Shown here one piece after another: positions 3,645-36,524 of a stretch of 64,000 bases of DNA. The DNA comes from Roseateles sp. (lineage in GTDB: Bacteria > Pseudomonadota > Gammaproteobacteria > Burkholderiales > Burkholderiaceae_C). Both the position numbers and the translations under genes were made by a program. The notes under the pieces are model-generated. The model was given only the letters and a program-made list of their open reading frames with translations, was not told the origin of the DNA and made no database searches. Position 1 is the stretch's first letter. Each line of letters starts with the position of its first letter. Location of the stretch: positions 1-64,000 of the forward strand of contig NZ_JAFAGT010000069.1 of the NCBI RefSeq assembly GCF_019237615.1. Reading direction: 5' to 3'.

Positions 3645-3767
3645 CGCCCGGCCCAATACGACGCCGCCGCCGGCAATGCGCTCATAAGCGACCCAAACTG
3701 CGTCAACCAGCCTGACGGGCGGTCTGTCAGCGATGGCTACAGACCCTGCCGCGTCCTTTGCCCCTAC

Positions 3768-18715: not shown

Positions 18716-18737
18716 GATACGAGCAACGAGAACGACG

Positions 18738-19328
18738 ATGGAATCCTTGATACATGCACTTTCGTGGGTCTCCACCGCACTGCAGGTGCCGGTGGTGGTG
18801 GGGATCCTCTACCTGCTTGTGCGCGGCCTGATGATGCTTGGCGAGACCTATGGGCGATGGGGCGAGCGGCTGCAGCGTGCACGCCGTGGCGCCGTTGCTG
18901 GCGACGTCAGGATCGATGAGCTGCTGACGGCCCTTCGGCCCGCCGGCCACCGTAAGCCAGATGTGCTGCAGCAATCTGTTGACGCCCTGTGTCAGGCACC
19001 AGGCGACCAGGCCTGGCATGACCACGTGGTTGCGCGGTTCGAGTTGCAGATCGACCGCCGCCTGGCGCTGCTACGCACGATGACGCGCATCGGCCCCTTG
19101 CTGGGCCTGATGGGCACGCTGATCCCGCTCGGACCCGCCCTGGTCGCACTCGCGGCTGGCGACATCGCCGTACTGGCGCGCAAGATGGAAGTGGCCTTCG
19201 CCACCACCGTGGTCGGACTGGTGATCGGTGCGATTGGCTTCCTGCTGCACCAGGCAGCACAACGCTGGGCGCTGGACGACTTGTCGATGCTGGAATTCGT
19301 CAGTGCGCGGCTACGAGGCGCGCAATGA
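18738..19328 (+). CDS. MotA/TolQ/ExbB-type proton channel protein
   Basis: 196 residues with an N-terminal membrane segment (PVVVGILYLLVRGLMML) and two further segments in the family core: RTMTRIGPLLGLMGTLIPLGPALVAL and AFATTVVGLVIGAIGFLL. This is the MotA/TolQ/ExbB pattern, proteins that use proton flow to drive partners across the periplasm. In this operon it probably energises the CobN-like protein, its receptor or both, replacing the usual ExbB. GAGAACGACG precedes the start 22 bases after the previous gene, and the stop overlaps the next start by ATGA. Confidence 0.85.
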   Translation: MESLIHALSWVSTALQVPVVVGILYLLVRGLMMLGETYGRWGERLQRARRGAVAGDVRIDELLTALRPAGHRKPDVLQQSVDALCQAPGDQAWHDHVVARFELQIDRRLALLRTMTRIGPLLGLMGTLIPLGPALVALAAGDIAVLARKMEVAFATTVVGLVIGAIGFLLHQAAQRWALDDLSMLEFVSARLRGAQ

Positions 19329-19693
19329 GCCGGCGCCGCTCCTTGCTACGCGGCCGTGGGATTGGCGCCGACAGTGACGACATGGACCCGCTCGGCTTCC
19401 TGATCAACCTGTTCGACGTCGCGCTGGTCTTTGCCCTGGCACTGATGATTGCGCTGGTATCCAACCTGCGTATTGCTGACATGCTGACGGCCAAGGACTT
19501 CACCGTCGTGAAGAATCCGGGCCGCCCGGATATGGAAATCATCACTCGCGAAGGCGGCAAAGTTTCGCGTTACGTTGCCGGCGACGCCACGGCCAGCAGT
19601 CGCCAGGGCCAACGCGTGGGCACCGCCTATCGTCTCGACAGCGGCGAGATTGTCTACGTCCCCGAAGCTGGCCCGCCTTTGCCGGCGAGGTGA
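19325..19693 (+). CDS. DUF2149 family membrane protein
   Basis: 122 residues with one membrane segment near residues 26-46 (LINLFDVALVFALALMIALV) preceded by the DPLGF motif typical of DUF2149, then a periplasmic tail with GQRVGTAYRLDSGEIVYVPE. Topologically it is like ExbD/TolR, so it probably forms the second half of the proton channel with the preceding ExbB-like protein. Start overlaps the previous stop (ATGA). It is the last gene of the operon; DUF2149 occupies the same last place in hmu-type operons. Confidence 0.85.
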   Translation: MSRRRSLLRGRGIGADSDDMDPLGFLINLFDVALVFALALMIALVSNLRIADMLTAKDFTVVKNPGRPDMEIITREGGKVSRYVAGDATASSRQGQRVGTAYRLDSGEIVYVPEAGPPLPAR

Positions 19694-19891
19694 TGAAGCG
19701 GATTTCACGGCCAAGCTGGGCAGGTTTCCGGTCGTGGGCCAAGAGCGCCTCGCCATCCTGAGGCCCGGCGGCGGCCAGGCGCCCCCAATCGCGTCGCCGG
19801 GGTCGGCCCCGATGCTGACCCAGGCCGGACATCTATCCGGTCGACGCTTCGATGACCTCCCCGGCGGGCAGCAGGCGTCCACGCTTCAGCC

Positions 19892-20222
19892 CTCAAGGCC
19901 ACCGCGCCCAAAAGGTCTACCAGGCCTTGCTCGACGAGAGCGCCGAAACCGGCCTGGCGACGGTCTACCGCGTGCGGGTGCAGTTCGTGCAGGCCGGCCC
20001 GTTGCTGCGCACGCACTTCGAAATCGGCAGAGCCGTGTTCGAGCTCGACGAGGTGCGCACCACGACCACTTGATCTGCCACGCGGCGGCGGGGTCAAGGA
20101 GTTCTGCGCCCCCCGGAATCGGAGGCCGCCAGCAGGCCATCGCGGCCGAGCGTAGCTCCCGGCTACAAGCCCACGACCTGGTCTTTCATGGCTTGTGCTC
20201 TCACGGCCCGCCGGCGAAGAAA
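19892..20222 (+). pseudogene. fur: Decayed fur gene remnant
   Basis: Fragments of a Fur repressor are spread over at least three frames. LKATAPK, as at a Fur N-terminus, is followed within a few bases by VYQALLDESAETGLATVYRV, so about 20 residues (the first helices) are deleted. Then come QFVQAGPLLRTHFEIGRAVFELDE, a frameshift, GAHHDHLIC, another shift giving VKEFC, and a last shift giving RQQAIAAERSSRLQAHDLVFHGLCSHG. The HHDH metal site is still readable but the CxxC is broken. The genome should carry an intact fur elsewhere. The stretch 19694-19891 before it and 20223-20310 after it shows nothing I recognise. Confidence 0.8.
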
Positions 20223-20310
20223 CAGTTGACAGCGCCTCACGGATGGGCGCGCCGGCATGAGGCCACAGATCGACGCCGGGGCGGCCGCTCTCTATGGCCT
20301 TTGACGCAAG

Positions 20311-20355
20311 GGGGCGGCCATGCACCGGTCTGATGGCCGCCCCGAGGCGGCCATC
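20311..20355. terminator. Three-arm hairpin at convergent gene ends
   Basis: GGGGCGGCCAT (20311-20321), ATGGCCGCCCC (20333-20343) and GGCGGCCATC (20346-20355) can form two mutually exclusive perfect hairpins, the second with a 10-bp stem and 4-base loop. The element lies just past the stop of the minus-strand TonB receptor at 20384. No U-run follows, so Rho-independent termination is not certain; a bidirectional terminator or transcript-end stabiliser is the likely role. Confidence 0.5.
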
Positions 20356-20383
20356 TGCGCTTGCAGGGCTACCCCTGCGGCGC

Positions 20384-22813
20384 TCAGTACGACGCCGACA
20401 TCGTCAGCAGCAGTTGCCGCGGTGCTGCACGCTGGAACGTCTGGTAGTCGCCCGACACCGAGTAGCCGCCGATGCCAACCGATCCGATGTTGCGGTGGTC
20501 CAGCAGGTTGTTCACATCAAGCCGGAACTGCAACTCAGGCATGGCACCTGACGCACCGAGCTTGTAGGACGCGTTGGCGTTCACCGTCCATTGCGTGGGC
20601 ACGTAGATGTCGTTGCTGTACGTGAACGGTTGTCGGTTGAACAGCGTGCTGGCCAGGCCCGCCTCGAAGGCGCCCCGCCGGACCGAGGCCTGCGTGATGA
20701 ACGACTGGCCCGGATAGCCGGGCTGGCTCTTGCCGCGCAGGTCCACCGGTTCGCCGGGCACTTCGAGCGAGCTGTCGTAGCGGAACCTGCTGACGGACCA
20801 CGACTGCGACAACGTGAGCCAAGACAGCAGATCGGCGCTGACGGTCAGATCGGCGCCGACGACGTGCGAGCGCGGCACGATACCCACGCTGCGGACCGGT
20901 GCGAACTGCGGACCGGTGGCTCCGTTGAGCAGCCGGTTGCGGATCCAGCCGACATAGACGTCGGCGTTCACCCTGGCGGCGCCCATGCGCTGGTAGCCGC
21001 CCAGCGTGAGGTTCCAGGTCTTCTCAGGCTTGAGGGTCTTGACGGCGGCGTCGAAGGTCTCCTGGTCGGTAGCAGACCAGGCCGAGTTGACCGGGCCGAT
21101 GTTGTCGCGGGGGGAGATGCGGTAGGCAACCGTGCTGGCTCCGGTATCGACGAACAACAGCGAGCCTGCGGCGGGCCGCCATTCGACGGCCAGGTGGGGC
21201 AGGAAGGGCGCCGTCACGCCCAGCTTGCCGGTGGGCGCCTGATCGGGACCGACACCGCCGCCCGCCGTCACGAAGCGCACGGCCTTGAAGCCGGCATCGA
21301 TGCTGACATCGCCGAGCGTCACGACGTCGCGGACGTAGAGCTGCGTCGACGAGGTGTGCCAGCGCGAGAGGTTTGCGGTCTCAAACGCCGGGCCGTAAGT
21401 GGTGTAGGGACCGACCGCCTTGAGCGGGGCGCCGGTGCCGAGCGCAGGCTGGTTGTACCAGTTGACGGCCGACCTGCTGGAACCGTGCTCGACCCACACG
21501 CCCACGGACGCATCGTGCCGGTCGGACTTGTAGGTCAGCTCGGCCGTCGCACCGCCGCGATGCGAGCGCGGTTGCCAGACCTGCGACGAGAACGGCGCAC
21601 CGGTTTGCGAGGGCACCGTCACGTCGGAGATCTCGATGTCGCTGCGGTTGCTCGCGCCATAGACCATGAGCTTGCCCGACAAGGACTTCGAGATCGTGAA
21701 GCGATGCGCGATGTTGCCGATCAGGTCGGTCGTTGCCTGGCCGGTGTCGTACGGGACCTGGCTGGCCAGATCGCCGCAGGTGTAGGCGCCGCAGGAGGCT
21801 TGCGCATTCTCGGGCGACGCGACATGGTAGGCGTGGGCGTAGTCGGGATAGAAGATATCCGTGCCCTTCCAGCCGAGCTTGTCGAGCATGTCGAACGAGG
21901 TGTTGTTGTAGCCCCAGACCTGCGCGCGCGCGGCAGAGACGAACATGGAAACATCGCCCCAGGGCAGGTCCTGCACGGCCTTGAAGTTGGCACGCAGGAA
22001 CTGTTGCGTGCCGTGACCCGTGTACTTGTCCTTGGATATCTGCTGCACGCCCAGCAGCAACCTGGGCCCGCTTTCGCCGATGCGCCCCGATTGCCAAGTC
22101 AGCGAGTACAGCTGCGTGTCGTGGCTGCCGCGGCCTACCGTGGCAGCGAGCTTCGGCGCTTCGGCGAGATCGGTCAGCGCGTACAGCAGTTCTCCGCCGC
22201 TGGCGGTGCTCGAGAACGTCGATACGCGGGCCGAACCCGGCGCGACCTTGACCGAGCCGATGTTGTCGGGCACACCGACGCTCAGCACCGAGTTGCCGGT
22301 GACGCTGCCGAAACTGCCGTCGTTGAGGGGAATGCCCTCGAAGGTGTAAGCCAGCTCGTTGTTGAAGAAGCCCCGGACGAAGATGAAGGCGTCCGACGCG
22401 TCCAGGCCATAGGCATCGGCAGAGGTGACGGTGACGCCCGGCAGGTTCCGCGTGAACAGCAGCGGGTTGGCGGCGGGCATCGCCGCTGCGGCCCAGTCTT
22501 CGGCGCGCAGCCTGTACTGGCCCGGAGCGACCGGTGCCGTCGTACCCTCGCCCAGCTTCCTCGCCCCGGTGACGACGACGGTCTTCAGGGCGACGGGCGC
22601 CGCGGCCTGCGCGTCGTCGTCAACTGCGGCGGTTTGCTGATCGCGGACTTCGTTGTCGGGCTTGTCATCGGGGCGCTCGCCTGCGCTGGCGCTGCGCGCG
22701 TTCTGCGTGGATGGAGGTGGTGCCGTTTGCTGTTGTGCCAGCGCCGGCAAGGCCGACGCGATGCAGGCCGTTGCGGTGACGATGGCGGAGGAGAGACGGT
22801 ATTCGAAAGACAT
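20384..22813 (-). CDS. TonB-dependent outer-membrane receptor (unit 3)
   Basis: 809 residues from ATG 22813, preceded by GGAGA; the extra N-terminal residues of the longest ORF are not part of the signal peptide (SSAIVTATACIASALPALAQ). A low-complexity Gln/Pro/Asp linker follows, then VALKTVVVTGARK and a plug with LLFTRNLPGVTVTSADAYGL and FIFVRGFFNNELAYTFEGIPLNDG. The barrel ends LLLTMSASY with the aromatic terminal residue expected for outer-membrane insertion. It stands alone, and no Zur- or Fur-like box was recognised upstream. The ligand is not predictable. A large 838-residue ORF on the opposite strand is its shadow. Confidence 0.88.
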   Translation of the reverse strand: MSFEYRLSSAIVTATACIASALPALAQQQTAPPPSTQNARSASAGERPDDKPDNEVRDQQTAAVDDDAQAAAPVALKTVVVTGARKLGEGTTAPVAPGQYRLRAEDWAAAAMPAANPLLFTRNLPGVTVTSADAYGLDASDAFIFVRGFFNNELAYTFEGIPLNDGSFGSVTGNSVLSVGVPDNIGSVKVAPGSARVSTFSSTASGGELLYALTDLAEAPKLAATVGRGSHDTQLYSLTWQSGRIGESGPRLLLGVQQISKDKYTGHGTQQFLRANFKAVQDLPWGDVSMFVSAARAQVWGYNNTSFDMLDKLGWKGTDIFYPDYAHAYHVASPENAQASCGAYTCGDLASQVPYDTGQATTDLIGNIAHRFTISKSLSGKLMVYGASNRSDIEISDVTVPSQTGAPFSSQVWQPRSHRGGATAELTYKSDRHDASVGVWVEHGSSRSAVNWYNQPALGTGAPLKAVGPYTTYGPAFETANLSRWHTSSTQLYVRDVVTLGDVSIDAGFKAVRFVTAGGGVGPDQAPTGKLGVTAPFLPHLAVEWRPAAGSLLFVDTGASTVAYRISPRDNIGPVNSAWSATDQETFDAAVKTLKPEKTWNLTLGGYQRMGAARVNADVYVGWIRNRLLNGATGPQFAPVRSVGIVPRSHVVGADLTVSADLLSWLTLSQSWSVSRFRYDSSLEVPGEPVDLRGKSQPGYPGQSFITQASVRRGAFEAGLASTLFNRQPFTYSNDIYVPTQWTVNANASYKLGASGAMPELQFRLDVNNLLDHRNIGSVGIGGYSVSGDYQTFQRAAPRQLLLTMSASY

Positions 22814-24555
22814 GGGAAATCTCCGCAAACTGAATTGCGTGAATGGCATGGGAGAGGACGTGGAGCGATTCGCAGGCCACGCTCGGCGGGGCACGGCGAA
22901 TCGACGGCAGGCGGTGCCCGCTGCCGCTGCGCTCAGGTCACCAAGAGCTCGACAGCGGTCTCACGCACGGTGAGGCAGTCGGTCCTTGTGGAACGAGGGC
23001 GGCAGACATCGGGGCGGAGTCAGCCCCGCGGCCGGCGTCTGGTGGGTGCCCCCGGCGCTTGCGCAGCAAGGCGGCCGAGGCACGATGGAGGCGGATCAAC
23101 AGCATGAAGTTGCTTCGGGCGCTCGGCCACGGAGGCAACCTCGGGCGCTCTAGCGAGCCGGTTGTCCGTGTCGGAGCAGGATTCGGGGGGACGACCGGGA
23201 GGTCGTCACGGGATCGGGCGCGCATCGGCGCCAACTAGGGTCGGGGTCCATGAAGGCTCCTGTGGTTTGAGGTGAAGGGGCGCGACCGGACAGGACGCGG
23301 CGTCCCGCGTCCGGCGCTATGGTCGGCGTGACATCGAGCGGCGCACGATCGAACGCAACCGCCGGCCGCGTGCTCACGCACCGGCGCTCAGGCGGATCGA
23401 CTGATCAGGAAAAAGGGCTGCGGCCTGCAAGGCCGGCCCGCGGAGCGAGCGTTAAACGGCCAGGCAGGCGGCGGCCATCCCGGCACGCACGCATTTGCTG
23501 CAACTACTACTGGCACTGTCCACGCGAGCGGCTCCGAAGTGATGATCTAAAAAGTATCGACGGCCGCATCGACGGCTGTCAACAAACTTTTATCGCTGCG
23601 AACAAAGATGATCGCCTCTGAAGCCGTCCGCCACGGACATCGCTGCCGAAGACTCATGGGATGCCAGCCCATTGCATCCGACTCGGGAGCATTGGGACTA
23701 CGTCCCGCGGCACCGCCAACGCCGCGCCTGTAGGAGCGTCGACCGCGGTCCGGGCGCCAGCTTGCCGCCGTTGCCGAACTCCTCGGCAACAAGGTCCATC
23801 GACCCTGCCTGGCCCGCATGCTCGGCTGCGCGTGCTGTCGGCGTTGCACGACCATCTATCGCTTCTTGGTCTGCTTGGCGTGAGGTGCAACCGCTCATCG
23901 CCGTCGATGCGGCGGCAATGGCCTCGCCAGAGTTGCGGGCCTTCGCGGCGCACCAGTACGCGCTGCCGTCGACGCCCCATTGGCCGGCGTCCCGCATGCG
24001 CCTCCTCGGCTCCGGCCACGAGTCCTTGCAGCGCGTGGCCGTGCGAGCTTCGCGGCACCGGAATCAGTCGGCAGGCCCGACGCGGACCGATGCCAAGGTC
24101 AAGCGAGCAGCAATCTTCGTCACATGGCGGCCCCAGGACGGGCGATGCGCCACCCACACCTCCTCCAGGGAAGCCATTGACGACACTCTGAAGGACCTGA
24201 AGAAACGGGGGATCCAGGATGTCGACGACCCCCCACAAAATCCGTCTTCTCAGTCAAATTCATAACGTCAATGTCAGTGCATTGAAGATTGATCATCAAG
24301 TCTATGGACGAGATCACCATCGCCAGCTCTGCACTGCTAGCATATCGATGACGCTGACTCATGGGAAAGATGTCGACTGCGGCATTGCTCGAATCGAACC
24401 TCTGGATTCCGCAAGTAAAACTGATCCCATAACTTGCGGATGCATGCACATGGAAGGCTGGATAGAACCCTCCCTGACGCTCACCCGGATTACCGCTTCA
24501 GCGCTAACCGCTGACAGGGAAAGAGCGCTTCGAGCGTGGCAACAGGGAGATCGCT
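22814..24555. other. 1.7-kb region without convincing gene
   Basis: Several ORFs exist on both strands but none resembles a protein I know. Around 24180-24230 the plus strand reads TLKDLKKRGIQDV, faintly like the LKxRGVQD motif of IS256-type transposases, so a degraded insertion element is conceivable. From about 24240 to 24540 the sequence becomes less GC-rich and probably holds the promoter and leader of the amine oxidase-lipoxygenase operon. No RNA gene is recognised. Confidence 0.35.
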
Positions 24556-26388
24556 ATGTCCTCCGAACAGATCAAGGCCGCGCAGGCGAGGCGCGACCAA
24601 CACCACCAGAACTTGGCCAAGAACCGGCGTCAGCTGGTCGAACGTCTGGGCGAGCATCTGAAGGAACAGGAGCGCCAGCGCCGCCCTTCGGTCTCCCCGC
24701 AGGAAGCCCGCCCTGGCCTGCCCCGGAACATGGCGGCAGCCACCAGCACGCCGCTACGGGTGGGCATCGTGGGCGGTGGCATGGCCGGCATGTACGCCGC
24801 GCTGCTGCTGGATCAGCTCGGGATCGACTACCAGATCCTGGAGGCCTCCGGAGAACGCCTGGGTGGCCGGGTACGAACGCACTACTTCAACAACAAGCCG
24901 CATCAGTATGCGGAACTGGGCGCCATGCGCTTCCCGCAGTCCTGGCTGCAGTCTCGCCTTTTTGCGTTCTGGGACTATCTCAACCGGACCGCCCCCGGCA
25001 TCCCGGGCGCCCGCGAAATCACCCGCATCCCCTACATCCTCTACGACGCCAGCACCGACCCCAAGGCCGGCAACCTGCTTTGCTTCAATGGCCAGCCGCC
25101 GGTCACTCGCAACGAAGCCAGCCTGAACAACCGCCTGCTGGGCTTCGACCCCCTCTTCGAAGGAGCGGAGTTCGATTACTTCAAGGACGCGCAGGGAAAC
25201 TTGAAGCCGGCGCAGGAGCTGCTTGACCGCGCAATTCAGCCCTTCATGGATCTTCTCAAAGGCGATCACATCGAGGCGGCCTGGGACAAGATCCTGAGCT
25301 ACGACGGCTACTCGGGCCGCAGCTACCTGCAGGAGGTCGGCGACGGCACGGTCCCCTACCCGGTCCGTATCGTGGACTACATGGAGAGCGTGCTCAGCTA
25401 CACCGGCGTCTATGACCTGGCTTTCCTGGAGATGCTGCTGGACAACTTCTCCTTCGACGACACCAGGCAGTGGTGGGCCATGGACGGCGGCACGGATCGC
25501 GTGGCCCAGGAGATGAGTCATCGGATACCCCGCGAGAAGATCATCATGGGCGCCTCGGTGTTCCGTGTGGAGGAGTCGGGCGACCACGCTCGGGTCCACT
25601 ACCGCTTCGGACAGGGCAACCTCACTGAAGTGGAGGAGTTCGACCGCGTCATCGTCACCGTGCCCTTCTCGGTGCTGCGCTTCATGGACACGCCGATGTC
25701 CTGGTCCGCGCAGAAGTACGAGGCCATACGCATGCTCAAGATGACCAACGCGGTCAAGGTGGCGCTCGGCTTCCGCAGCCGTTTCTGGGAGCGGCCCGGC
25801 CTCTACAGCGAGGGCATGCGCGGGGGCCAGAGCAATACGGACCTGCCGGTGCGCAGCGTGGTCTATCCTTCCTTCGGCATTGGCGAGCCAGGCTCGTCAT
25901 ACATCCTGGCCAGCTACTGCTGGCAGAACGACGCGGACAAGTTCTCGCATCTCACGCAGGAACAGATGTTCGAGGTCTGCCTGCAGCACGTCGTGCGCCT
26001 GCATGGCGAGGTGGCCCGCGAGGAGTACCTCGGGCACGGCGCGTCCATCGTCTGGAACCAGGACCCGCTGGCCGGCGGCGGCTTCGAGTTCTTCGCCCCG
26101 GGCCAGTTCCTGCAGAAGTTCCTGGATGCTCGCGAACCGCAGGGACGCTTTCACTTCGCCGGAGAGCACCTGGACATGGTCCATTACTGGATCGCGGGGG
26201 CCTATGACTCGGCCTTTCGCACGGTCTGGGAGATCCTGATCCAGGAGGGGCGCATGAACCGCCACACCATGGAGCAGCTGGGTTCCGCCCTCGGCGGCGG
26301 CCTCATCCTGCCCTCCATGCTGCCCTGCTTTGGTCGCGCCGACATCGAGGACATGGCGCGCAGCGTGCTGCTCGTGCCCGAGGACTGA
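24556..26388 (+). CDS. FAD-dependent amine / L-amino-acid oxidase 1
   Basis: Flavin amine oxidases oxidise amines or amino acids to imines (then keto acids or aldehydes), releasing hydrogen peroxide. The 610-residue protein has a charged, helical 65-residue N-terminal extension, the FAD Rossmann motif VGIVGGGMAGMYAALLL, the ILEASGERLGGRVRT signature, ELGAMRFP substrate-site region, and the C-terminal flavin contact FHFAGEHLDMVHYWIAGAYDS. No signal peptide is seen, so it is probably cytosolic. AGGGAG precedes the start. It opens a five-gene operon with a lipoxygenase, a ThDP decarboxylase, a second oxidase and an M61 peptidase. LAAO and other amine oxidases cannot be distinguished from sequence alone. 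Confidence 0.85.
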   Translation: MSSEQIKAAQARRDQHHQNLAKNRRQLVERLGEHLKEQERQRRPSVSPQEARPGLPRNMAAATSTPLRVGIVGGGMAGMYAALLLDQLGIDYQILEASGERLGGRVRTHYFNNKPHQYAELGAMRFPQSWLQSRLFAFWDYLNRTAPGIPGAREITRIPYILYDASTDPKAGNLLCFNGQPPVTRNEASLNNRLLGFDPLFEGAEFDYFKDAQGNLKPAQELLDRAIQPFMDLLKGDHIEAAWDKILSYDGYSGRSYLQEVGDGTVPYPVRIVDYMESVLSYTGVYDLAFLEMLLDNFSFDDTRQWWAMDGGTDRVAQEMSHRIPREKIIMGASVFRVEESGDHARVHYRFGQGNLTEVEEFDRVIVTVPFSVLRFMDTPMSWSAQKYEAIRMLKMTNAVKVALGFRSRFWERPGLYSEGMRGGQSNTDLPVRSVVYPSFGIGEPGSSYILASYCWQNDADKFSHLTQEQMFEVCLQHVVRLHGEVAREEYLGHGASIVWNQDPLAGGGFEFFAPGQFLQKFLDAREPQGRFHFAGEHLDMVHYWIAGAYDSAFRTVWEILIQEGRMNRHTMEQLGSALGGGLILPSMLPCFGRADIEDMARSVLLVPED

Positions 26389-26623: not shown

Positions 26624-28678
26624 ATGGCTTCCAAGCAACCTGCCTTCTCTTCCGCAATCCCCGCCACCATGCAACGCTACATGGCCGGTCTGTCGCACCG
26701 GACCAGCAGCCTCTACCAGACGGCCACCCAGGTGAGCGTCCTGCGCAAGGCAGCGGCCGCCGATGCCCCTAGCGTGGTGGACTATGTCTACAGCGGGCTC
26801 ACATCCCAGGATCTGGCCTACGACACCGACCAGTACCCGGTGAGCGGAACCTTCCAGGGTGTGATGCCACCCTGGTTCAACTCCCTCAGTTCAGTGCCCG
26901 CCAATTGGCTATGGAGCCCCGTCTGGTACGAGTACAACCCGCAGCGCACGGCACAAGTCACTGCGGAGAACGAGTACATCCAGGCCAATGTGCCGCAACA
27001 GACATACAACGGCAGCACCGCCTCGACGCTGATCCAGCAGTGGTACACGCAGGGCATGTGGGACCTCGCCCCCACCCCCAGCTCTCCCGCTCCCTTCTCC
27101 GCGGACCAGGTGGCTGCGCTGAGCACGCACTGGATTGCCGATGACCTGGAGTTCGCCCGCCAACGGCTGGGTGGCGCCAACCCCAACGTCATTCAACAGG
27201 CCGATGCCCAGCGTTACCAGGTGAGCAGCTGGGTCCAGGCCGCCAGCAACGGCGGTCAGCTCGCAACGCTGGCAAGCACGCTGGCCGCCGCCCAGGCCAG
27301 TGGCGCGCTGTATGTCTGCGACTACACGCCGGTGCTCGGCAATGCGGTGAAGAACCAGCTTGTGGTCAAGGGCCGCTATCTGGCCGCCCCGATCTGCTTC
27401 TTCCAGGTGGATACCACCGGCAAGCAGCTGCGCCCCCTGGCAATACAAATCCAGGGCACCGATCCGCAGTCCTACATCTTCACGCCCAACGACCCCTCCG
27501 ACCCGGACGGCAATGCCTGGTTGCTGGCCAAGCTCTGGGCCGCCTCGGCCGATCAGCAGTGGTGGTTCAGCGGTTCGCACCTGTTCAACACCCACACCAT
27601 CGACATGCTCTTCGGCGTGGCTGCGCTGAACCAGGTTCAGCAGGGCCAGCTGGCGGCCAACCACCCCATGCTGCTCCTGGCCCAACCTTTCCTGGCCCAG
27701 GTCTTCGACATCAATGCTGTCGTGATCAGCGCACCCGGCAGCGACGAGAGCGGCATCTACCAGAAGGCCAGCGGCGCCAAGCCAAACTTCTGCGACGCGG
27801 TGCTGCCTACCGGGCGTGTCGGGCTCTATCAGGTCGTCAGCGACCTGTTCAAGAACTACAGCTTCGACGCCAACGCCTTCACCGCCCAGCTGTCCAGCCG
27901 TGGTCTGCAGCAGGGGGCCATCGCCCAGTTGCAGTACCCCTATCGAGACGACGGCCTGGTCTGGTGGAACGCCATTGAGGCCTTTGTCGGGAACGTGGTC
28001 AAGGCCAGCTACGCCAACGACGCCGCCGTGGCGAGCGACACGGGGCTCAACGCCTGGATGGAGACCACCCAGGCCGCCTTCAACCACGACGGGACAGCGC
28101 GATTCAGCTGGACACCGACGATGGCCTATCTGCAAGGCGCCTTCACCAACCTGCTGTTCACCTGTTCGACACAGCACACGGCCGTCAATGACACCATGCT
28201 CAATGGCTGGGCCTTCACGCCCAACGGGCCCTTCGCCATGCAATCGGCACCGCCGGTAGACGCAAAGAGCGTCAGCCAGGCGGCTGTGCTGAACGCACTG
28301 CCCAACCCGCAAACCACGGCAGGCCTGGACCTCATCAAGAACCAGATCAGCTTTGTGATGAACGGCACCGCGATAGTCACACCACCCGACACCCTGGCCC
28401 AGGACAGCGGCAGTGCCAGCGGCATGCTCAAGGTCTTCCCCTACGCAGCCGGCTCCGCGCAGCAGCAGGCGGTGAGCGATTTCTGGAACGCCATCTGGAC
28501 CGGCCCGAGCTCGGTCAACGGCCTGATCACCCAGAACCAGAGCCGGCGCGTCGCTTCCTGGAGTGGCGCGCAGCCGGTACCCAACAGCCTCAGCTACTAC
28601 TACCTGAGCGCCGGGCTCTCCCCATGGAGCGCGCCCGCCTACCTGAACGCCCCCGTGATGAACCAGATCCAGATCTGA
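26624..28678 (+). CDS. Bacterial lipoxygenase
   Basis: Lipoxygenases are non-haem iron dioxygenases that add O2 to polyunsaturated fatty acids, giving hydroperoxides. From ATG 26624 (GGGAG upstream) the protein has 684 residues; the longer ORF start is rejected for lack of family match. Family landmarks are in order: FARQRLGGANPNVIQ, HLFNTHTIDMLFG (two iron-ligand His five apart), HPMLLLAQPF, YPYRDDGLVWWNAIEAFV, QHTAVND (third His and the Asn four residues on) and the C-terminal Ile that serves as an iron ligand. No signal peptide or PLAT domain is evident. Lipoxygenases are rare in bacteria, and this operon context is unusual. Confidence 0.9.
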   Translation: MASKQPAFSSAIPATMQRYMAGLSHRTSSLYQTATQVSVLRKAAAADAPSVVDYVYSGLTSQDLAYDTDQYPVSGTFQGVMPPWFNSLSSVPANWLWSPVWYEYNPQRTAQVTAENEYIQANVPQQTYNGSTASTLIQQWYTQGMWDLAPTPSSPAPFSADQVAALSTHWIADDLEFARQRLGGANPNVIQQADAQRYQVSSWVQAASNGGQLATLASTLAAAQASGALYVCDYTPVLGNAVKNQLVVKGRYLAAPICFFQVDTTGKQLRPLAIQIQGTDPQSYIFTPNDPSDPDGNAWLLAKLWAASADQQWWFSGSHLFNTHTIDMLFGVAALNQVQQGQLAANHPMLLLAQPFLAQVFDINAVVISAPGSDESGIYQKASGAKPNFCDAVLPTGRVGLYQVVSDLFKNYSFDANAFTAQLSSRGLQQGAIAQLQYPYRDDGLVWWNAIEAFVGNVVKASYANDAAVASDTGLNAWMETTQAAFNHDGTARFSWTPTMAYLQGAFTNLLFTCSTQHTAVNDTMLNGWAFTPNGPFAMQSAPPVDAKSVSQAAVLNALPNPQTTAGLDLIKNQISFVMNGTAIVTPPDTLAQDSGSASGMLKVFPYAAGSAQQQAVSDFWNAIWTGPSSVNGLITQNQSRRVASWSGAQPVPNSLSYYYLSAGLSPWSAPAYLNAPVMNQIQI

Positions 28679-28779: not shown

Positions 28780-30903
28780 ATGCCCCAAAGCGGCCTCATG
28801 ACCCAATCCATGTTCCAGCGGTACTTCCGCAAGCCCGCCACCGAATCACCGGCAGCCCCTTCCAACCGCAGGGTCGGCGCCTGGGCCCAGGGAGATCGGG
28901 AAACGGTGGCCAGCTACCTGAACAAGCGCTTGGCCGAGATCGGCGTCAAGTACGTGATGGCCATACCTGGCGACTACATCAGCGACTGGGTTGAGACACT
29001 GGACGGCCCAGACAGTGCCGGGTTGATCCGCGTCCACCCCAACAACGAGATGTGCGCCACCTACGCCGCCGACGGCTTCGGCCGTGCCGGCGGCGGCAAG
29101 ACGGTGGGTTGTGTGTCCACGACCTATGGCGTGGGCTCTCTCAACGCCGTGCAAGCCGTGGCCGGCGCCTATGTGGAGCATGTGCCGCTAGTGCTGATCA
29201 ACGGCACACCTTCCGTGGCGCAATTCAACTCGCAACGCGACCAGGGCGTGCTGTGGCACCACATGTTCGATGGTTCCCTGACGGATCTGCGCATCTACGA
29301 GCAGATCACCCGCATGGCCGTCCGCATCGACAACCCGGTCTTGGCGCCAGACCTGATCGACGCAGCACTCACAGCCTGCATCACCGACTCACGGCCGGTC
29401 TACATCGAGATTTCCAACACCCTGGAAGGCTATGACGTTGCCTCGGTGTCCAGCCGCCCCGCGCTGAAGAGGTCCCCCATCCCGCAGGACAGCCAGTCGC
29501 TGGACGAAGCCCTGGCCGGCATGCTGCAGGTGCTGGTCGACGCCAAGCGGTTGGTGGTGCTGGGCGGCGTGGAGATCGCGCGCTTCGGCCTGCAGGAGCA
29601 GTTCAGCCAGATGCTCAGAGTTCTGAAGGCACCCTACCTCTCCAGCCTGCTGGGCAAGAGCGTGCTCAGCGAGTACAGCGCGCCCCACTTCAGCGGCACC
29701 TACAACGGTCGCAACTCGCAGGCGAACGTGCTGGACCTGATCGACAACGCCGACGTCATCCTCAGCCTTGGCGTGCAGGAGACGGACTTCAACTTCTCCG
29801 GTGTGGTCAGCACGGACTCCGACCCGGGCCAGGCACCCGGCCTGCCGCTGGAGCGCAGCATCGAGGTCCGGCTGGGCGCCGCGCGCATCAATGCCGGACT
29901 GACCCATCACCATCGTGAACTCTACTGGGGGGACATCCAACTGGGTGGCCTTGTCAGCCAGCTGCAGGAGTTGATCTGCGAGCCAAGCGGCCCTGCCATG
30001 AGGGCCCTGGTCAGCAAGTTTGCCGCGCTTGAACCGGTGCAGGAGAAGTTGATCAATGCAAAGGGAAAGCTGCCCAACGCTCCCTTTCCCAAGCTGGTTG
30101 GCGCCGTCTGGGACATCCCACCGCCCGACAGCTATGGCGCACAGGATCAGATCACCTGGGACAGTTTCAAGTCCCTGCTGCACCACCAGTACCTGTGCAG
30201 CTTCGGCAACGACGAGCACAAGGATGCCCCCATCCTGCTGGCCGACACCGGGCTCACCTTCTACAACCTCAACAACGTCAAGGTGCCGCAGAACGGCTTC
30301 ATTGCCCAATTGGCCTGGGGCGCCATCGGCTATTCGCCCGCAGCGAGCTACGGCGTCAAGCTGGCACAGGAATCCCTGGGCAGCCAACGGCGTGTGATCA
30401 GCGTTTCCGGCGACGGCGCCTTCAGCCAGAGTTCCAATGCCATCGGCACCATCGCTGCGCTGGGGTTGGACAACGTGGTCTTCGTGATGGCCAACGGCGT
30501 GTTCGCCATCGAGCAGTTCCTGGTGAACGCCGGCGCCTTCGGCCCGGGCAGTGGCAGCACGGCACCTCCGCAGTTCGCTCCCTTCACCCGCGTCCCGGAG
30601 ACCTCGCTGTGGCAGTGGCAAAAACTGGCGGAGGGCTTCGGCGGCGTGGGCTACGAGGTCAGCACCAATGCCGAGCTGGCGTCGGTGCTGGAGAAGATCA
30701 AGGCCGGGTCACCACCGCCCGCCCAACCTTCGGGGCCTTGTAGTGGCAAGGCTGGTCCGGGCTGCTGCGATTTCGCGCCCGACGCCGCACCGCAGACGCG
30801 TCGCTCGACCTTCACCCTGGTCGCCGTGCGCAATGTCTGCGACGACCTGCCCAGCAATACGCGCTGGAAGCTCGGTGGGGCCTCGCCCCGCCCAGCCGAC
30901 TGA
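28780..30903 (+). CDS. ThDP-dependent 2-keto acid decarboxylase
   Basis: 707 residues of the pyruvate/indolepyruvate decarboxylase class of thiamine diphosphate enzymes, which turn 2-keto acids into aldehydes and CO2. The N-terminal domain has IPGDYISDW, the catalytic-glutamate region NNEMCATYAADGFGRA and the paired His of decarboxylases (VLWHHMFDGS). The C-terminal ThDP motif is ISVSGDGAFSQ...VFVMANGVFAIE. AGGAG precedes ATG 28780; an in-frame ATG at 28798 is possible. A Cys/Pro-rich insertion (PSGPCSGKAGPGCCDF) near residue 650 is unusual for the family. Placed between two amine oxidases, it could decarboxylate the keto acid made by one of them. Confidence 0.85.
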   Translation: MPQSGLMTQSMFQRYFRKPATESPAAPSNRRVGAWAQGDRETVASYLNKRLAEIGVKYVMAIPGDYISDWVETLDGPDSAGLIRVHPNNEMCATYAADGFGRAGGGKTVGCVSTTYGVGSLNAVQAVAGAYVEHVPLVLINGTPSVAQFNSQRDQGVLWHHMFDGSLTDLRIYEQITRMAVRIDNPVLAPDLIDAALTACITDSRPVYIEISNTLEGYDVASVSSRPALKRSPIPQDSQSLDEALAGMLQVLVDAKRLVVLGGVEIARFGLQEQFSQMLRVLKAPYLSSLLGKSVLSEYSAPHFSGTYNGRNSQANVLDLIDNADVILSLGVQETDFNFSGVVSTDSDPGQAPGLPLERSIEVRLGAARINAGLTHHHRELYWGDIQLGGLVSQLQELICEPSGPAMRALVSKFAALEPVQEKLINAKGKLPNAPFPKLVGAVWDIPPPDSYGAQDQITWDSFKSLLHHQYLCSFGNDEHKDAPILLADTGLTFYNLNNVKVPQNGFIAQLAWGAIGYSPAASYGVKLAQESLGSQRRVISVSGDGAFSQSSNAIGTIAALGLDNVVFVMANGVFAIEQFLVNAGAFGPGSGSTAPPQFAPFTRVPETSLWQWQKLAEGFGGVGYEVSTNAELASVLEKIKAGSPPPAQPSGPCSGKAGPGCCDFAPDAAPQTRRSTFTLVAVRNVCDDLPSNTRWKLGGASPRPAD

Positions 30904-30943: not shown

Positions 30944-32638
30944 ATGACCAAGACTTTCCACGACCTGCTGCCCGAGTCGGACGACCCGGTGGTGAAGCAC
31001 TACATCGAGATCATCAAGCAAGGGCTGCCCAAGACCCGCAAGCCCCGCAGGATCGCCATCGTGGGTGCCGGCATGGCCGGCCTGGTCTCGGCCCAGTTGC
31101 TGGCCGAAGCCGGCCATCGTGTGACGATCTTCGAGGGCAACACCCGGGTGGGTGGACGGATTCACACCTTGCGTGGCAGCAGGTACTTCGGACGCCCGGA
31201 TCTCTACGGCGAGGCAGGCGCCATGCGCCTGCCCCTGGTCTACCACGACCTGCTACGCACCTATATCTGCAAATACCAGGTGCCGGTGAACACCTTCTTC
31301 CAGGTGGATGTGGAGAAAGACAGCATCAACAGGCAGAACCAGAACCAGGTCATCTGCGACAACGCCCCGATCAAGCCCGCCACCAAGGCATACAACGCCT
31401 GGACCTTCGTCAATGGCATCAAGATGCGGACACGGGACTACATGGCGGCCGAGTTCCCGGCCAAGTCCCTGGGCTACGACATCTCGGCCCTGCCCCAGCC
31501 TCTGCAGAAGATGAACGCCGCCGACCTGCTGGGCTCGGTCACCAACCAGGTCCGGGACTTCGTCAATCAGGACCCACGCAACAACTGGCCGGTGGCCATC
31601 GCACGCTACGACAACTATTCGGTGCAGGGCTTCCTGCGACAGTTCTCCCTGCTGCCCGGCAAGGCCATCGAGTACGTGGAGGTACTGCAGAACCTGGAAA
31701 GCCGCAGCGCGCTGAGCTTCGTACAGAACCTCATCGAGATCTCGCTGATCAACTCCAACAACACCTACTGGGAGATCACCCAAGGCAGCGACAACCTGGT
31801 CAAGGCCTGGTTCGCCCCGCTGACGGCCGCCGGGGTGAAGGTGCACTTCAACCAGTGGATCGATAGCGTGGCCTATGCACCCCAAGGTGGGCGAGCCACA
31901 TTGCGCTTCTCGCCTTTCGACAAGGAATGGGACGGCGACGTCGAGTTCGGCGGCGAGCTCAAGGCTCCGAGCTTTGTGCCCGAGTTCGAGGCAGACGAAG
32001 TCATCCTCACCGTGCCTGTGCCGTGCATGCGCACGATCGACTTCCACCCATGCCTGCCGCAGGACAAACGCCTGATGATCCGCAACCTCTACTACGACTC
32101 TGCGGCCAAGGTTCTGCTCGCGTTCGATGAGCGCTTTTGGGAAACGCGGGACGACATCTGGGGCGGTGGCTCTGTGACGGACCTCTCCAACCGCATGGTC
32201 TATTACCCCAGTCATGGCTTTGGCGAGCAGGCCGGCGTGGTGCTGGCCAGCTACACCTGGGAGACCGAGGCCCGCGGCTGGGGTTCCCTAACCGACGCCC
32301 AACGCATCGAGCTCTCGCTGGATGGCCTGGCCCAGCTGCATGGCGACTACATCCGTCGGCACTTCATCTCCGGTGCGTCGGTCTTCTGGGATGAAAGCCC
32401 ATTTGCCATGGGCGAGGCGGCCATGTTCGCGCCAGGTCAACTGAGCGAGTTGCAGCCGATGGTCTCGGCGCCGCTGGGGAACCTGCATTTCGCCGGGGAC
32501 TGGACCACGCTGCGCCACGCCTGGATAGAGGGCGCGATCGAGTCCGGCATCCGGGCCGCGCTGGAGATTGAGCCCACGCCAAAGGCCAGTAGCGACAAGG
32601 CCAACATGCTCCGCCCCATCCCGCCCAGGGTGATGTGA
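30944..32638 (+). CDS. FAD-dependent amine / L-amino-acid oxidase 2
   Basis: 564 residues from ATG 30944 (GGAG upstream). FAD motif RIAIVGAGMAGLVSAQLL, FEGNTRVGGRIHTLRG, YGEAGAMRLP, and C-terminal FAGDWTTLRHAWIEGAIESG place it in the flavin amine oxidase family, close to L-amino-acid oxidases of bacterial and fungal type. It is only distantly related to the first oxidase of the operon, so the two are unlikely to be a recent duplication and may act on different substrates. No signal peptide is seen. Gene spacing of 40 bases to the decarboxylase and 22 to the peptidase supports one transcript. Confidence 0.87.
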   Translation: MTKTFHDLLPESDDPVVKHYIEIIKQGLPKTRKPRRIAIVGAGMAGLVSAQLLAEAGHRVTIFEGNTRVGGRIHTLRGSRYFGRPDLYGEAGAMRLPLVYHDLLRTYICKYQVPVNTFFQVDVEKDSINRQNQNQVICDNAPIKPATKAYNAWTFVNGIKMRTRDYMAAEFPAKSLGYDISALPQPLQKMNAADLLGSVTNQVRDFVNQDPRNNWPVAIARYDNYSVQGFLRQFSLLPGKAIEYVEVLQNLESRSALSFVQNLIEISLINSNNTYWEITQGSDNLVKAWFAPLTAAGVKVHFNQWIDSVAYAPQGGRATLRFSPFDKEWDGDVEFGGELKAPSFVPEFEADEVILTVPVPCMRTIDFHPCLPQDKRLMIRNLYYDSAAKVLLAFDERFWETRDDIWGGGSVTDLSNRMVYYPSHGFGEQAGVVLASYTWETEARGWGSLTDAQRIELSLDGLAQLHGDYIRRHFISGASVFWDESPFAMGEAAMFAPGQLSELQPMVSAPLGNLHFAGDWTTLRHAWIEGAIESGIRAALEIEPTPKASSDKANMLRPIPPRVM

Positions 32639-32660: not shown

Positions 32661-34466
32661 ATGAGCAAGACCTCGCTCTCCGATGTGCACTACCGGGTCC
32701 GGGTCGATCCGCAGTCGCACGAGCTACACGTGCGCATGCGTCTCACCGGTCCGGTTGCACAGGGCACCCTGCACCTTCAGACGCCGAGCTGGGTGCCCGG
32801 CAACTACACCTTCACTCAACTGGGCAGGGACCTGTTTGAGCTGCAGGCATTCAACACCCGAGACGAGCACCCGTTGGCCCTGCATCGTGAGGGCTGGCAG
32901 GCCTACCGGATCGAAGGCGGGGACGGCGACGTCACCGTCAGCTATCGGGCCTGGGCCTATGCCACCGACCTGGGCGAACCCTCCGGCATACTCGACAACC
33001 AGTTCGCTGTCTTGCTGGGCACGCGCTATCTGCACAGCCCGCAACACCTCGGGGCCTGCACGGTCAGCTACGAGTTGCCGCCTGACTGGCAGGGCAGCAT
33101 CCATCACCCCAGCGGCGCGCAGCCGGTCTCGCCGGACAGCTGGCGCTACCCCAGCTACGAGACCCTGCTTGACACCCCGGTGGTGATGGGCCATTACGAC
33201 CTGATCAAGCGGTACGTCGAAGGCACGCCGTTCTTCTTCGCCTTCGTGGATCGTGGTGTCGGCTTCGAGGCGGAGGTCGACGGCTTTGTGGACCAGATCT
33301 GCACGGTGGCTGCCGGCTACCGCAAGCAGTTTGGCAGCTTCCCCTTCGAAGACTACAGCTTCGTCCTCAGCTTGAACCCCCAATCCTCTTGGGGGCTGGA
33401 GCACTTGACAAGCACCATGTGCGGCCTGGGGCCGGACGTCTTCACAGATCCGGACCAACGGGCCATAGGTGTGCGCGTCTGCGCCCATGAGCTCTTTCAC
33501 GCCTGGAATGTCCGCCGGCTGCGCCCCTCGCCGCTGATGGACGTTTCCCAACAGCTTGAGAGCGGCAGCTTCAGCGAGGGGCTGTGGATGGCCGAAGGCT
33601 TCACCCGCTACTACGAGTTCCTGGCCTGCACCCGCGCCCAGGTCTACAGCCCGGCGCAGTTCCTTAGCAACCTGGTGGGCTATCTGGAGCATCTGCGCGC
33701 CGTGCCGGCCTACCAGCGGGTCAGCGCGGCGGACTCTTCATTGGCCACCTACCTCAACCATGCGCCCAAGTACGCCGGCCGGCCATGCAACTGCATTGAC
33801 TATTACGACAAAGGCATGCTGATTGCCTTTGGCGTGGATGCGATGCTCCGGCTAGGCTCGCCCGTGCGCACGCTGGACAAGGCCTTTCGCGGCTTCTACG
33901 AGGAATATGCAAGCGGCGGCCCCAATGGCAAGGGCTACAGCACGAACGACGCCATAGCGTACTTTCGCCAGTTGCAGCCCGCCATCGGCGACATGTTGGA
34001 CGCCACGGTACGCCAGCCTGGCGGCCTGAGCACCGAAGACCTGCTGGGTCAGCTGGGCTTTCTCGTCGAGCACAAAAGCACCCATCAGCTGGGCCTGATG
34101 TTCCTCGACAACGGTGCACCGACGATCTACAACGTGCTGGACGACAGCCCCGCCGGTGACAGCGGCCTCGCTCCGGGCGACGTGATCAGCACGGTCAACG
34201 GTTTCAGCTACACGGCCGCCGCGTTGAACTGGGCTGCCAGCCATGAGGGAATGGTAAGCCTGGGCGTACAGCGTGGACACCGCAGTCTGACCTTCTCGAT
34301 GAGGCCCCGCAGCCACCGGCAGATCATCCGACTGCGCTGGCAAGGCACCGTGGAGCAGGCAGAGCGCCTCTACACCTGGCTGGAGCAGCGCTTTCCCCTG
34401 GCCGAGGGGCAGGTCTTCGAGCCGTCCTTCTACGAGAACTTCCATGGCATCGAAACCGTGGTCTGA
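32661..34466 (+). CDS. M61 family glycyl-type aminopeptidase with PDZ domain
   Basis: M61 peptidases are zinc aminopeptidases. The 601-residue protein has an N-terminal beta domain (QTPSWVPGNYTFTQLGRDLFELQAF, as in the family), the zinc site HELFHAWNVRRLRP, the downstream glutamate in GLWMAEGFTRYYE, and a C-terminal PDZ segment (VLDDSPAGDSGLAPGDVISTVNG). AGGAGACATGCC precedes ATG 32661. No signal peptide is recognised, unlike many secreted members. It closes the amine oxidase-lipoxygenase operon; releasing N-terminal amino acids for the oxidases is a possible role but is inference. It is convergent with the hybrid kinase that ends at 34591. Confidence 0.88.
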   Translation: MSKTSLSDVHYRVRVDPQSHELHVRMRLTGPVAQGTLHLQTPSWVPGNYTFTQLGRDLFELQAFNTRDEHPLALHREGWQAYRIEGGDGDVTVSYRAWAYATDLGEPSGILDNQFAVLLGTRYLHSPQHLGACTVSYELPPDWQGSIHHPSGAQPVSPDSWRYPSYETLLDTPVVMGHYDLIKRYVEGTPFFFAFVDRGVGFEAEVDGFVDQICTVAAGYRKQFGSFPFEDYSFVLSLNPQSSWGLEHLTSTMCGLGPDVFTDPDQRAIGVRVCAHELFHAWNVRRLRPSPLMDVSQQLESGSFSEGLWMAEGFTRYYEFLACTRAQVYSPAQFLSNLVGYLEHLRAVPAYQRVSAADSSLATYLNHAPKYAGRPCNCIDYYDKGMLIAFGVDAMLRLGSPVRTLDKAFRGFYEEYASGGPNGKGYSTNDAIAYFRQLQPAIGDMLDATVRQPGGLSTEDLLGQLGFLVEHKSTHQLGLMFLDNGAPTIYNVLDDSPAGDSGLAPGDVISTVNGFSYTAAALNWAASHEGMVSLGVQRGHRSLTFSMRPRSHRQIIRLRWQGTVEQAERLYTWLEQRFPLAEGQVFEPSFYENFHGIETVV

Positions 34467-34590: not shown

Positions 34591-36522
34591 CTAGCGTCGC
34601 TCCAGGGAATACTGGAGCGCGCTGTCCAGCGCATTCATCAGCTCCGCCGCGTCCAGCGGCTTGGTCAGATAGCGGAAGAACCCGGCCTTCAGGCTCGCGG
34701 CGGCGGCATCGGGCATTGCATTGGCCGTCAGCGCGATAACGGGAATATGTGCGGTGCGCGGATCCTGCTTGAGCAGCGCCTGGGCCTCACGGCCAGTCAT
34801 CAGCGGCATGTTGTTGTCCATCAGGATGACGTCGGGCCTTTCAGCCCGGGCGACCTCCACGCCAGAGCGACCATTGCTGGCCGTCAGCAGACGCAAGCCA
34901 CGGCGCGCCCTTAGCAGCTCCTCGACGAGCCGCAGACTGGCGGGATTGTCCTCGACATAGAGCACTGTAGCTGGCGGCCCCTCCCGGACGCTCGCGGGGA
35001 GCGCGTCGATGTGTGCCGCGCTGGTCTTGGGCAGCGTGGCCAATTCGCTGGCCAGCAGTTCAACCCAGAACACGCTGCCCTCACCGGGCGTGCTCTGCAC
35101 GCCGACGCGGCCGCCCATCAACTCAACGAGCCGTTTCGTGACGACAAGCCCGATACCCGTTCCCTGCTCGGGCCCAGCCTCATGGCCCAGGCGGTTGAAG
35201 GGCTGGAACAGCGCCTCGACCTGATCGGGTGCCAACCCTGCGCCAGTGTCCCGCACAGCGATGCGCAGCTGACGCGCGTCCGTCAGCTCACCCCCGACTG
35301 TCACCGTGCCATTCGGGCGGTTGTACTTGATTGCGTTGCTGACGAGGTTGAGCAGCACCTGCTTGAGTCGCGTGCGGTCAGCATGGACGACGAAGCCCCC
35401 GCTGGTCTCAAAGCGCAGCACGATGCCACGCTGCGTGGCCAGGGGCTCCATCATCCGGCGGCATTCGTCCAGCAGTCCGTCCAGGGGCACAGGCTCCAAG
35501 GACAGCTCGACATGACCACTTTCGATACGAGCGAGGTTGAGGATCTCGTTGATCAGCGTCAGCAGATGCTTGCCGGCGCCGACGATGTGTTCAGCGTATT
35601 CCTGGCGCCGCTCTCCCCCCAGCTCCGCGACGCTTCCGCCCAGCAACTGGCCAAAGCCGATGATGGCGTTCAGCGGCGTGCGCAGTTCGTGGCTCATGCT
35701 GGACAGGAACTCCGATTTCGCGCGATTGGCCTTCTCGGCCGCCGCTGTGGCAACTCGCAGTTCTTCGTTGGATGCCTCGAGTTGGGCCGTACGTTCGCGC
35801 ACGCGGGCCTCCAGCTCCTCGTTGAGCCGCAACACCTCGCGGCTGTGGCGCTCGATTTCACCGAGCATGCCGTTGAAGGAGTCGGCCAACACACCGACTT
35901 CGTCGTCGCGCGCCTTGGGTGCGCGGCGCGAATAGTCCTGGCGCAGCATCACGTCACGCGCCACGCTGCCGATCGCCAGAATGGGCTGAACGACAGCCCG
36001 CTGCAGCCGCATCGACAGCATCAGGGCCACGATCAGAGCCGCCAGCGCGACGGCCGTGGCGATGCCCACGTAGGTGGGCACGCGCTGCCACAGGCCGTAC
36101 TCGGCACGCAGGTAGACGCGACCGATCTCGCGACCGTCTTGCAGTATGGATTGCACCACCAGCAGGTCGCGGCCGTCGTAGCGCACACCGGGCGGCTCGG
36201 CACGCGCGGGTGGCGCGACTCCTGAAGTGGTATAGGTCGCGAAGCTCTGGCCGTTGGCGCCGTAGACCGCCGCGGCGTGGACGCGCGACTGCAGGCGCAG
36301 CAGCGAGAGGTTCTCGTGAGCCACTCGCGCGTCATCGAACTCCAGCGCCGGAGCCGTCGAGCGGCCAATCAACTCGGCCTGGGACTGCAGGTCGCTTACC
36401 CAGCCCTCGTGGTAGGCGTGCAAGTCGTAGGTCACCATCGCGCCGAGCGCAACGAACAGCGCCACCAGTGTCGTCAGCATCGTGACGGCAAGCAGCCGGT
36501 GCTGGAGCGAGAACCTAAGCAT
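34591..36522 (-). CDS. Hybrid sensor histidine kinase with C-terminal receiver
   Basis: 643 residues: two membrane segments (near 9-32 and 152-172) enclosing a periplasmic CHASE8-like sensor, a HAMP domain, a coiled coil (RLNEELEARVRERTAQLEASNEEL), HisKA with SSMSHELRTPLNAIIGF, HATPase with LVSNAIKYN, DTGAGL and GTGIGL, then a receiver with phosphoacceptor DVILMDNNMP and the TKP lysine. It is the third gene of a receptor-YfiR-kinase operon, starting 2 bases after the yfiR-like stop. YfiR proteins signal across the inner membrane, so its periplasmic loop is the natural partner. No DNA-binding output domain is present. Confidence 0.88.
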   Translation of the reverse strand: MLRFSLQHRLLAVTMLTTLVALFVALGAMVTYDLHAYHEGWVSDLQSQAELIGRSTAPALEFDDARVAHENLSLLRLQSRVHAAAVYGANGQSFATYTTSGVAPPARAEPPGVRYDGRDLLVVQSILQDGREIGRVYLRAEYGLWQRVPTYVGIATAVALAALIVALMLSMRLQRAVVQPILAIGSVARDVMLRQDYSRRAPKARDDEVGVLADSFNGMLGEIERHSREVLRLNEELEARVRERTAQLEASNEELRVATAAAEKANRAKSEFLSSMSHELRTPLNAIIGFGQLLGGSVAELGGERRQEYAEHIVGAGKHLLTLINEILNLARIESGHVELSLEPVPLDGLLDECRRMMEPLATQRGIVLRFETSGGFVVHADRTRLKQVLLNLVSNAIKYNRPNGTVTVGGELTDARQLRIAVRDTGAGLAPDQVEALFQPFNRLGHEAGPEQGTGIGLVVTKRLVELMGGRVGVQSTPGEGSVFWVELLASELATLPKTSAAHIDALPASVREGPPATVLYVEDNPASLRLVEELLRARRGLRLLTASNGRSGVEVARAERPDVILMDNNMPLMTGREAQALLKQDPRTAHIPVIALTANAMPDAAAASLKAGFFRYLTKPLDAAELMNALDSALQYSLERR

Positions 36523-36524
36523 CG

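Follow-up and report, generated by a model that had tools for sequence, protein, structure and literature searches.

In canonical lipoxygenases, the iron-ligand helix follows an H-x4-H-x4-H pattern, in which the first two histidines bind the iron and the third is not a ligand. The canonical iron ligands, in soybean numbering, are H499, H504, H690, N694, and I839 (PMC6244800), and in reviewed mammalian lipoxygenases the three histidine ligands are all kept, with variation only at the fourth position (PMC11593649). Bacterial members of the family include PA-LOX (LoxA) of Pseudomonas aeruginosa, which has a signal peptide, CspLOX2 of Cyanothece, and MF-LOX1 of Myxococcus fulvus, which is intracellular (PMC6612559). 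A lipoxygenase-family gene of Roseateles sp. differs from these in carrying tryptophan at the position of the first iron-binding histidine, and it is a member of a rare clade with genetic ties to L-amino-acid oxidases; this clade is probably an unstudied variant of the family.

The gene lies at positions 26624–28678 on the forward strand of the window (the whole 64,000-nucleotide stretch of DNA that was analyzed), and encodes a protein of 684 residues from an ATG preceded, about 8 nt to its 5' side, by GGAG. An in-frame upstream extension to a TTG at 26330 is possible; the related proteins begin near the ATG. The Pfam Lipoxygenase profile (PF00305) matches the protein with 102.2 bits (E = 3.6e-29), exceeding the curated cut-off of 23.6, and finds no other match in the genome, while a PDB search returned 53 distinct sequences that are all lipoxygenases or allene-oxide-synthase-lipoxygenase proteins, with CspLOX2 among the best solved relatives (E = 1e-32). 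The first-pass annotation was thus right to place the protein in this family. In structure comparisons the top Foldseek matches are lipoxygenases, with E values of about 1e-10 to 1e-11 but TM scores of only about 0.3 and no residue map; the AlphaFold2 models used, built from alignments of only six close relatives, are of low confidence (pLDDT 49 for the full protein and 54 for the catalytic core). Around the ligands, pLDDT is about 25–45 in both models, which is too low for measuring ligand distances.

The protein is probably cytosolic, as had been suggested, and has no N-terminal hydrophobic stretch or export signal, unlike PA-LOX and the Rhodococcus lipoxygenase. This feature had been regarded as distinctive, a view that does not hold, since many of the compared bacterial lipoxygenases also lack a signal peptide, and MF-LOX1 resides inside the cell (PMC6612559).

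Judged from its sequence, the gene is a genuine member of the lipoxygenase family, but its iron ligands are not intact. The first-pass annotation had taken HLFNTH (residues 319–324) as the ligand pair, a reading that is off by one register. The CspLOX2 alignment sets HEAISHLARTH opposite WFSGSHLFNTH, and a profile built from 18 other bacterial lipoxygenases yields the same register for the six clade members with alignments spanning this region. The position of ligand 1 (soybean H499) is therefore occupied by Trp314 (27563–27565, forward strand, as are all residues below; codon TGG), that of ligand 2 (soybean H504) by His319 (27578–27580), and His324 (27593–27595) is the conserved third histidine of HxxxxHxxxxH, a non-ligand in canonical lipoxygenases. 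The remaining assignments stand, as the His and Asn of QHTAVND (residues 517–523) fall in the correct columns: His518 (28175–28177) at ligand 3 (soybean H690) and Asn522 (28187–28189) at ligand 4 (soybean N694; Asn, His, or Ser in canonical enzymes) are both invariant in the clade, and the last residue, Ile684 (28673–28675), occupies the C-terminal carboxylate position (soybean I839) within an IQI end common to all seven clade members.

The register with His319 as ligand 2 is favored in every clade member by about 9–14 bits per sequence; the emission scores of the helix block in this register and in the earlier one are 4.0 vs. -5.5 bits for the 684-residue protein and 9.0 vs. -5.2 bits for the homolog from a Bacteroidetes metagenome-assembled genome (MAG; L018). 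The block before the helix fits the His319 register and the block after it fits the shifted one, which places a five-residue insertion between them, in the post-helix stretch that aligns poorly with canonical lipoxygenases. A related group of fusion proteins, described below, aligns with the clade gaplessly across AWLLAK...HxxxxHxxxxH, its helix reading HDVGFHQLLTH, and carries a larger insertion at the same post-helix place, where a loop is expected, so that this stretch appears to tolerate indels. The NTH of FNTH corresponds to the third-histidine motif of other lipoxygenases.

These columns were compared in 35 sequences, comprising the seven clade members and 28 other bacterial lipoxygenases. 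Ligand 1, ligand 2, the third histidine, ligand 3, and ligand 4 read W-H-H-H-N throughout the clade and H-H-H-H-N in 27 of the 28 others, the exception being one Nostoc plasmid protein with H-H-H-H-G; the ligand 1 residue is thus Trp in 7/7 sequences of the clade and His in 28/28 of the remainder. All seven genomes share the tryptophan, which excludes a sequencing error. The exceptional protein, encoded at 2530–4371 of locus L057 on a Nostoc cf. commune plasmid, also ends in Gly and possibly has a degenerate or altered site.

The six other members of this Trp clade are 47–63% identical to the Roseateles protein. A search for related loci recovered five of them, with identities of 55–60%, from Rugamonas aquatica, Rugamonas rivuli, Janthinobacterium fluminis, the Bacteroidetes MAG, and another MAG that is labelled Nitriliruptorales, and whole-genome searches added a single further member (G899; 47% identical). 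The genomes sampled comprised about 400 of the phylum, about 400 of the order, 295 of the Janthinobacterium family, 248 of the phylum of the Bacteroidetes MAG, and 61 of the genus Rugamonas. No Trp-clade member beyond these seven was found in any of these samples, which points to a rare and patchy distribution, and scans of viral contigs yielded no further lipoxygenases. The other lipoxygenases from the bacterial family to which this Roseateles belongs, one of them from its own genus, have canonical sites and share only about 30% identity with the protein. In the Nitriliruptorales-labelled MAG (L015), the AO1 (L-amino-acid oxidase), lipoxygenase-like, and thiamine diphosphate (ThDP) enzyme genes are 60–68% identical to their Roseateles counterparts, for which horizontal transfer and a mis-binned contig are alternative explanations. 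Separately, a lipoxygenase-family gene on a Pantoea ananatis plasmid (L060, 2347–4143) adjoins genes for a lysozyme, a lysis protein, and Ig-like domain proteins, an odd, phage-like setting.

In Roseateles, the lipoxygenase-fold gene is the second of five genes on the forward strand. Directly upstream lies AO1 (24556–26388; 610 aa; Pfam Amino_oxidase, 5.7e-48), an L-amino-acid oxidase of the L-lysine oxidase/LAAO4 subfamily whose best PDB relatives are L-lysine alpha-oxidase and LAAO4, and whose orthologs, 66–69% identical, adjoin the lipoxygenase gene at five other loci. Downstream follow a 707-residue ThDP enzyme of the pyruvate/indolepyruvate decarboxylase type (28780–30903; Pfam TPP_enzyme N, M, and C domains; 4.8e-49 against pyruvate decarboxylase in the PDB), a second L-amino-acid oxidase, AO2 (30944–32638, with its ATG at 30944; 564 aa; Pfam 1.1e-55), for which the nearest PDB entries are a reconstructed vertebrate L-amino-acid oxidase (LAAO; 1.6e-78) and L-glutamate oxidase, and an M61-family metallopeptidase (32661–34466; 601 aa; Pfam M61 N-terminal and catalytic domains) that keeps the HELFH zinc motif. 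The ThDP enzyme keeps the decarboxylase-site Asp, the cofactor Glu, His-His, GDG, and the C-terminal Glu. Both oxidases keep the FAD motif, the carboxylate-binding Arg and Tyr, and the active-site Lys, residues whose roles we take to be those of their counterparts in snake-venom LAAO. The catalytic residues of all partner enzymes are likewise kept in the relatives.

The intergenic gaps are 235 bp (AO1 to lipoxygenase), 101 bp (lipoxygenase to ThDP enzyme), 40 bp, and 22 bp; a single transcript for the five genes is plausible, and promoter and terminator scans at the block gave no signal above chance. The order AO1–lipoxygenase–ThDP enzyme–AO2–M61 is intact in two Rugamonas and one Janthinobacterium, and the M61 gene is present in matching blocks at four loci (L016, L017, L019, and L032). 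In the Bacteroidetes MAG (L018, 6862–15124), the block is rearranged and also includes genes for an asparaginase, a DAO-family oxidase, and a third amino-oxidase; the Nitriliruptorales-labelled MAG has AO1 next to the lipoxygenase gene, with the ThDP gene divergently oriented. In G899 (L032), the block lacks both oxidases and consists of the lipoxygenase, ThDP enzyme, and M61 genes, after which come genes for a serine dehydratase and an aminotransferase; AO1 is therefore not strictly required. The surroundings had been called an amine oxidase operon: the block is indeed conserved and operon-like and contains flavin oxidases, but the term is imprecise, as both flavoproteins are of the L-amino-acid oxidase family and the block also contains the 2-oxo-acid decarboxylase-type ThDP enzyme and the M61 peptidase. 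Upstream, 13263–22825 holds a large ORF that by its appearance is CobN-like, an ExbB/TolQ-type channel gene, a DUF2149 gene, and, on the opposite strand, a TonB-dependent receptor, and resembles a TonB-type uptake cluster; just downstream, 34591–39067 carries on the opposite strand a CHASE8-HAMP hybrid histidine kinase, a YfiR-like (DUF4154) gene, and a TonB-dependent receptor.

The fusion proteins join the two kinds of domain in one chain. The search of the Janthinobacterium family recovered four single polypeptides of about 1,330 residues (L041, L042, L053, and L054), in which an amino-oxidase domain is followed by a lipoxygenase domain, and the same fusion is encoded on Burkholderia stagnalis plasmid NZ_CP156687.1 (L055, 6562–10539; WP_347469750.1, annotated as "FAD-dependent oxidoreductase"). 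The genomes of the genus Rugamonas contained three more long open frames (L061, L062, and L063), and L063, whose full frame is L069, is the same LAAO–lipoxygenase fusion. The oxidase domain of the fusions is nearest to LAAO4 and L-lysine oxidase, the same type as AO1; the oxidase-domain tree is unrooted, and a sister relationship between AO1 and the fusion oxidases is not drawn from it. A phylogeny of the lipoxygenase domains, a check that the first-pass annotation had proposed, groups the Trp clade and the fusions together and apart from all canonical bacterial lipoxygenases, with an SH-aLRT support of 100, and with bootstrap/SH-aLRT values of 100/100 in a second tree from which three long-branched rows were excluded. 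In keeping with this grouping, the Trp-clade profile scores 155–187 bits on the fusions vs. about 60–110 bits on most canonical lipoxygenases.

The fusions retain both ligand histidines of the helix (HxxxxH), so the tryptophan is not due to association with an oxidase as such. Their C-terminus reads NTIQT, with Thr rather than Ile, in the five fusions compared, an end also noted in L069; exchange of the terminal Ile for any residue except Val has been reported to inactivate lipoxygenase (PMC6244800). Both sister lineages thus deviate from the canonical site in their aligned residues, each in a different way. No ThDP enzyme or M61 peptidase was found near the fusion genes. The B. stagnalis fusion is instead surrounded by two octopine/nopaline dehydrogenase-like genes, a phytanoyl-CoA dioxygenase, a methyltransferase, an LLM flavin oxidoreductase, a PLP decarboxylase, a tyrosinase-family gene, and an MFS transporter, and these surroundings look like a small-molecule pathway. 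Literature searches on fusions of both families, on co-occurrence of both Pfam accessions, and on lipoxygenases with lost ligands returned nothing relevant within a scope that left out most subscription journals.

The two genes adjoin in one lineage and are fused, in unchanged order, in the sister lineage, which is good evidence that the oxidase and the lipoxygenase-fold protein function together. The reading favored here, put forward tentatively and at somewhat less than an even chance, is that the protein is a cytosolic lipoxygenase-fold partner of AO1 with a modified metal site, acting on an amino-acid-derived compound and not on a polyunsaturated fatty acid. The M61 peptidase could supply amino acids, AO1 and AO2 would oxidize L-amino acids, giving 2-oxo acids, ammonia, and H2O2, and decarboxylation of the 2-oxo acids by the ThDP enzyme would yield aldehydes. 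The lipoxygenase-fold protein, which retains four of the five canonical ligand positions, would keep its metal in a site nearer to two histidines and a carboxylate, and would oxygenate an amino-acid-derived compound instead of a polyunsaturated fatty acid, possibly in physical contact with AO1. Such a substrate is favored by the amino-acid and 2-oxo-acid chemistry of the partner enzymes and by the poor alignment of the post-helix stretch with canonical enzymes; a role differing from that of the secreted P. aeruginosa enzyme, suggested earlier, is probable. Gene linkage, on the other hand, is silent on which step the lipoxygenase-fold protein catalyzes, and the lost ligand histidine may mean lost catalysis.

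The two-His-one-carboxylate site is a common arrangement in other non-heme iron oxygenases, and by analogy a site composed of two His, an Asn, and a carboxylate would resemble it. Exchange of H367 of human 5-lipoxygenase, the residue equivalent to the replaced histidine, reportedly abolishes activity and leaves some iron; should this hold, it would be credible for the protein to retain a metal yet lack ordinary lipoxygenase activity. A more specific and rather unlikely extension is that giving up the first histidine produced a two-His-one-carboxylate-type site that could accommodate a bidentate substrate, for example a 2-oxo acid produced by the neighboring L-amino-acid oxidase, and thereby a lipoxygenase-derived oxygenase of amino-acid-derived compounds.

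Lost catalysis is the strongest of the competing explanations and is nonetheless unlikely: the protein would be a pseudo-lipoxygenase serving as a scaffold, a substrate binder, or a regulator of the adjacent L-amino-acid oxidase. A bulky tryptophan replaces, throughout the clade, a histidine found in every other lipoxygenase compared, the natural oxidase–lipoxygenase fusions indicate a physical association, and the fusions are themselves non-canonical, with a terminal Thr that falls among the non-Val exchanges reported as inactivating (PMC6244800). A dead scaffold, however, should lose the remaining site residues. Seven divergent members, down to 47% identity, instead keep ligands 2, 3, and 4 and the C-terminal Ile without variation, which favors a retained metal site.

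An ordinary lipoxygenase acting on polyunsaturated fatty acids is distinctly improbable. The HLFNTH pair would have to lie at the iron despite the alignment, or His324 would have to swing in for ligand 1. HLFNTH does have the identical H-x4-H spacing, moving the five-residue indel to a place before the helix would restore both ligands, in agreement with the alignment downstream of the helix, and the Pfam and PDB relatives are all lipoxygenases. However, the helix block is gapless with the HDVGFHQLLTH of the sister group, the profile scores prefer the other register in each sequence, the post-helix stretch tolerates indels, as the larger sister insertion indicates, and NTH matches the third-histidine motif elsewhere; polyunsaturated fatty acids are, moreover, unusual in such bacteria. 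That the block is an amino-acid catabolic island in which the lipoxygenase-like protein is an unrelated neighbor with a role of its own, such as lipid peroxide handling, fits gaps of 235 and 101 bp that do not force one transcript and the absence of promoter or terminator signals above chance in the scans, but is very unlikely given that the linkage is kept across Betaproteobacteria and a Bacteroidetes MAG and that a single polypeptide of the sister clade carries both the oxidase and the lipoxygenase part.

The three histidine ligands are treated as defining for lipoxygenases, and the Trp clade is a natural exception at one ligand only. Its place in an amino-acid-oxidation block, together with a fusion sister, suggests that part of the lipoxygenase family lies outside fatty-acid chemistry. 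The locus also illustrates that motif-based annotation, relying on HxxxxH, HxxxN, and a final Ile, can accept a protein in the wrong register.

Compared with PA-LOX and CspLOX2, the Roseateles protein belongs to the same family, with about 25–32% identity over the catalytic domain, and has ligands 2, 3, and 4 and the C-terminal Ile in the expected columns; it differs in the Trp in place of the ligand 1 His, the five-residue insertion after the ligand helix, a poorly alignable arched-helix region, and a different gene neighborhood, and, unlike PA-LOX, it has no signal peptide. The ThDP enzyme has the catalytic residues and the three ThDP domains of pyruvate/indolepyruvate decarboxylases, but is about 150 residues longer than solved pyruvate decarboxylases and scores far under every named NCBIfam decarboxylase cut-off. 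AO1 resembles L-lysine alpha-oxidase and LAAO4, and AO2 resembles vertebrate-type LAAO and L-glutamate oxidase, in profile, FAD motif, Arg, Tyr, and Lys; unlike these oxidases, they are genetically linked to a lipoxygenase-fold gene. The LAAO–lipoxygenase fusions likewise combine an LAAO4/L-lysine-oxidase-type flavoprotein and a lipoxygenase domain, in identical order, and differ from the Trp clade in forming one polypeptide of about 1,330 residues, in keeping both helix ligands, and in ending with Thr.
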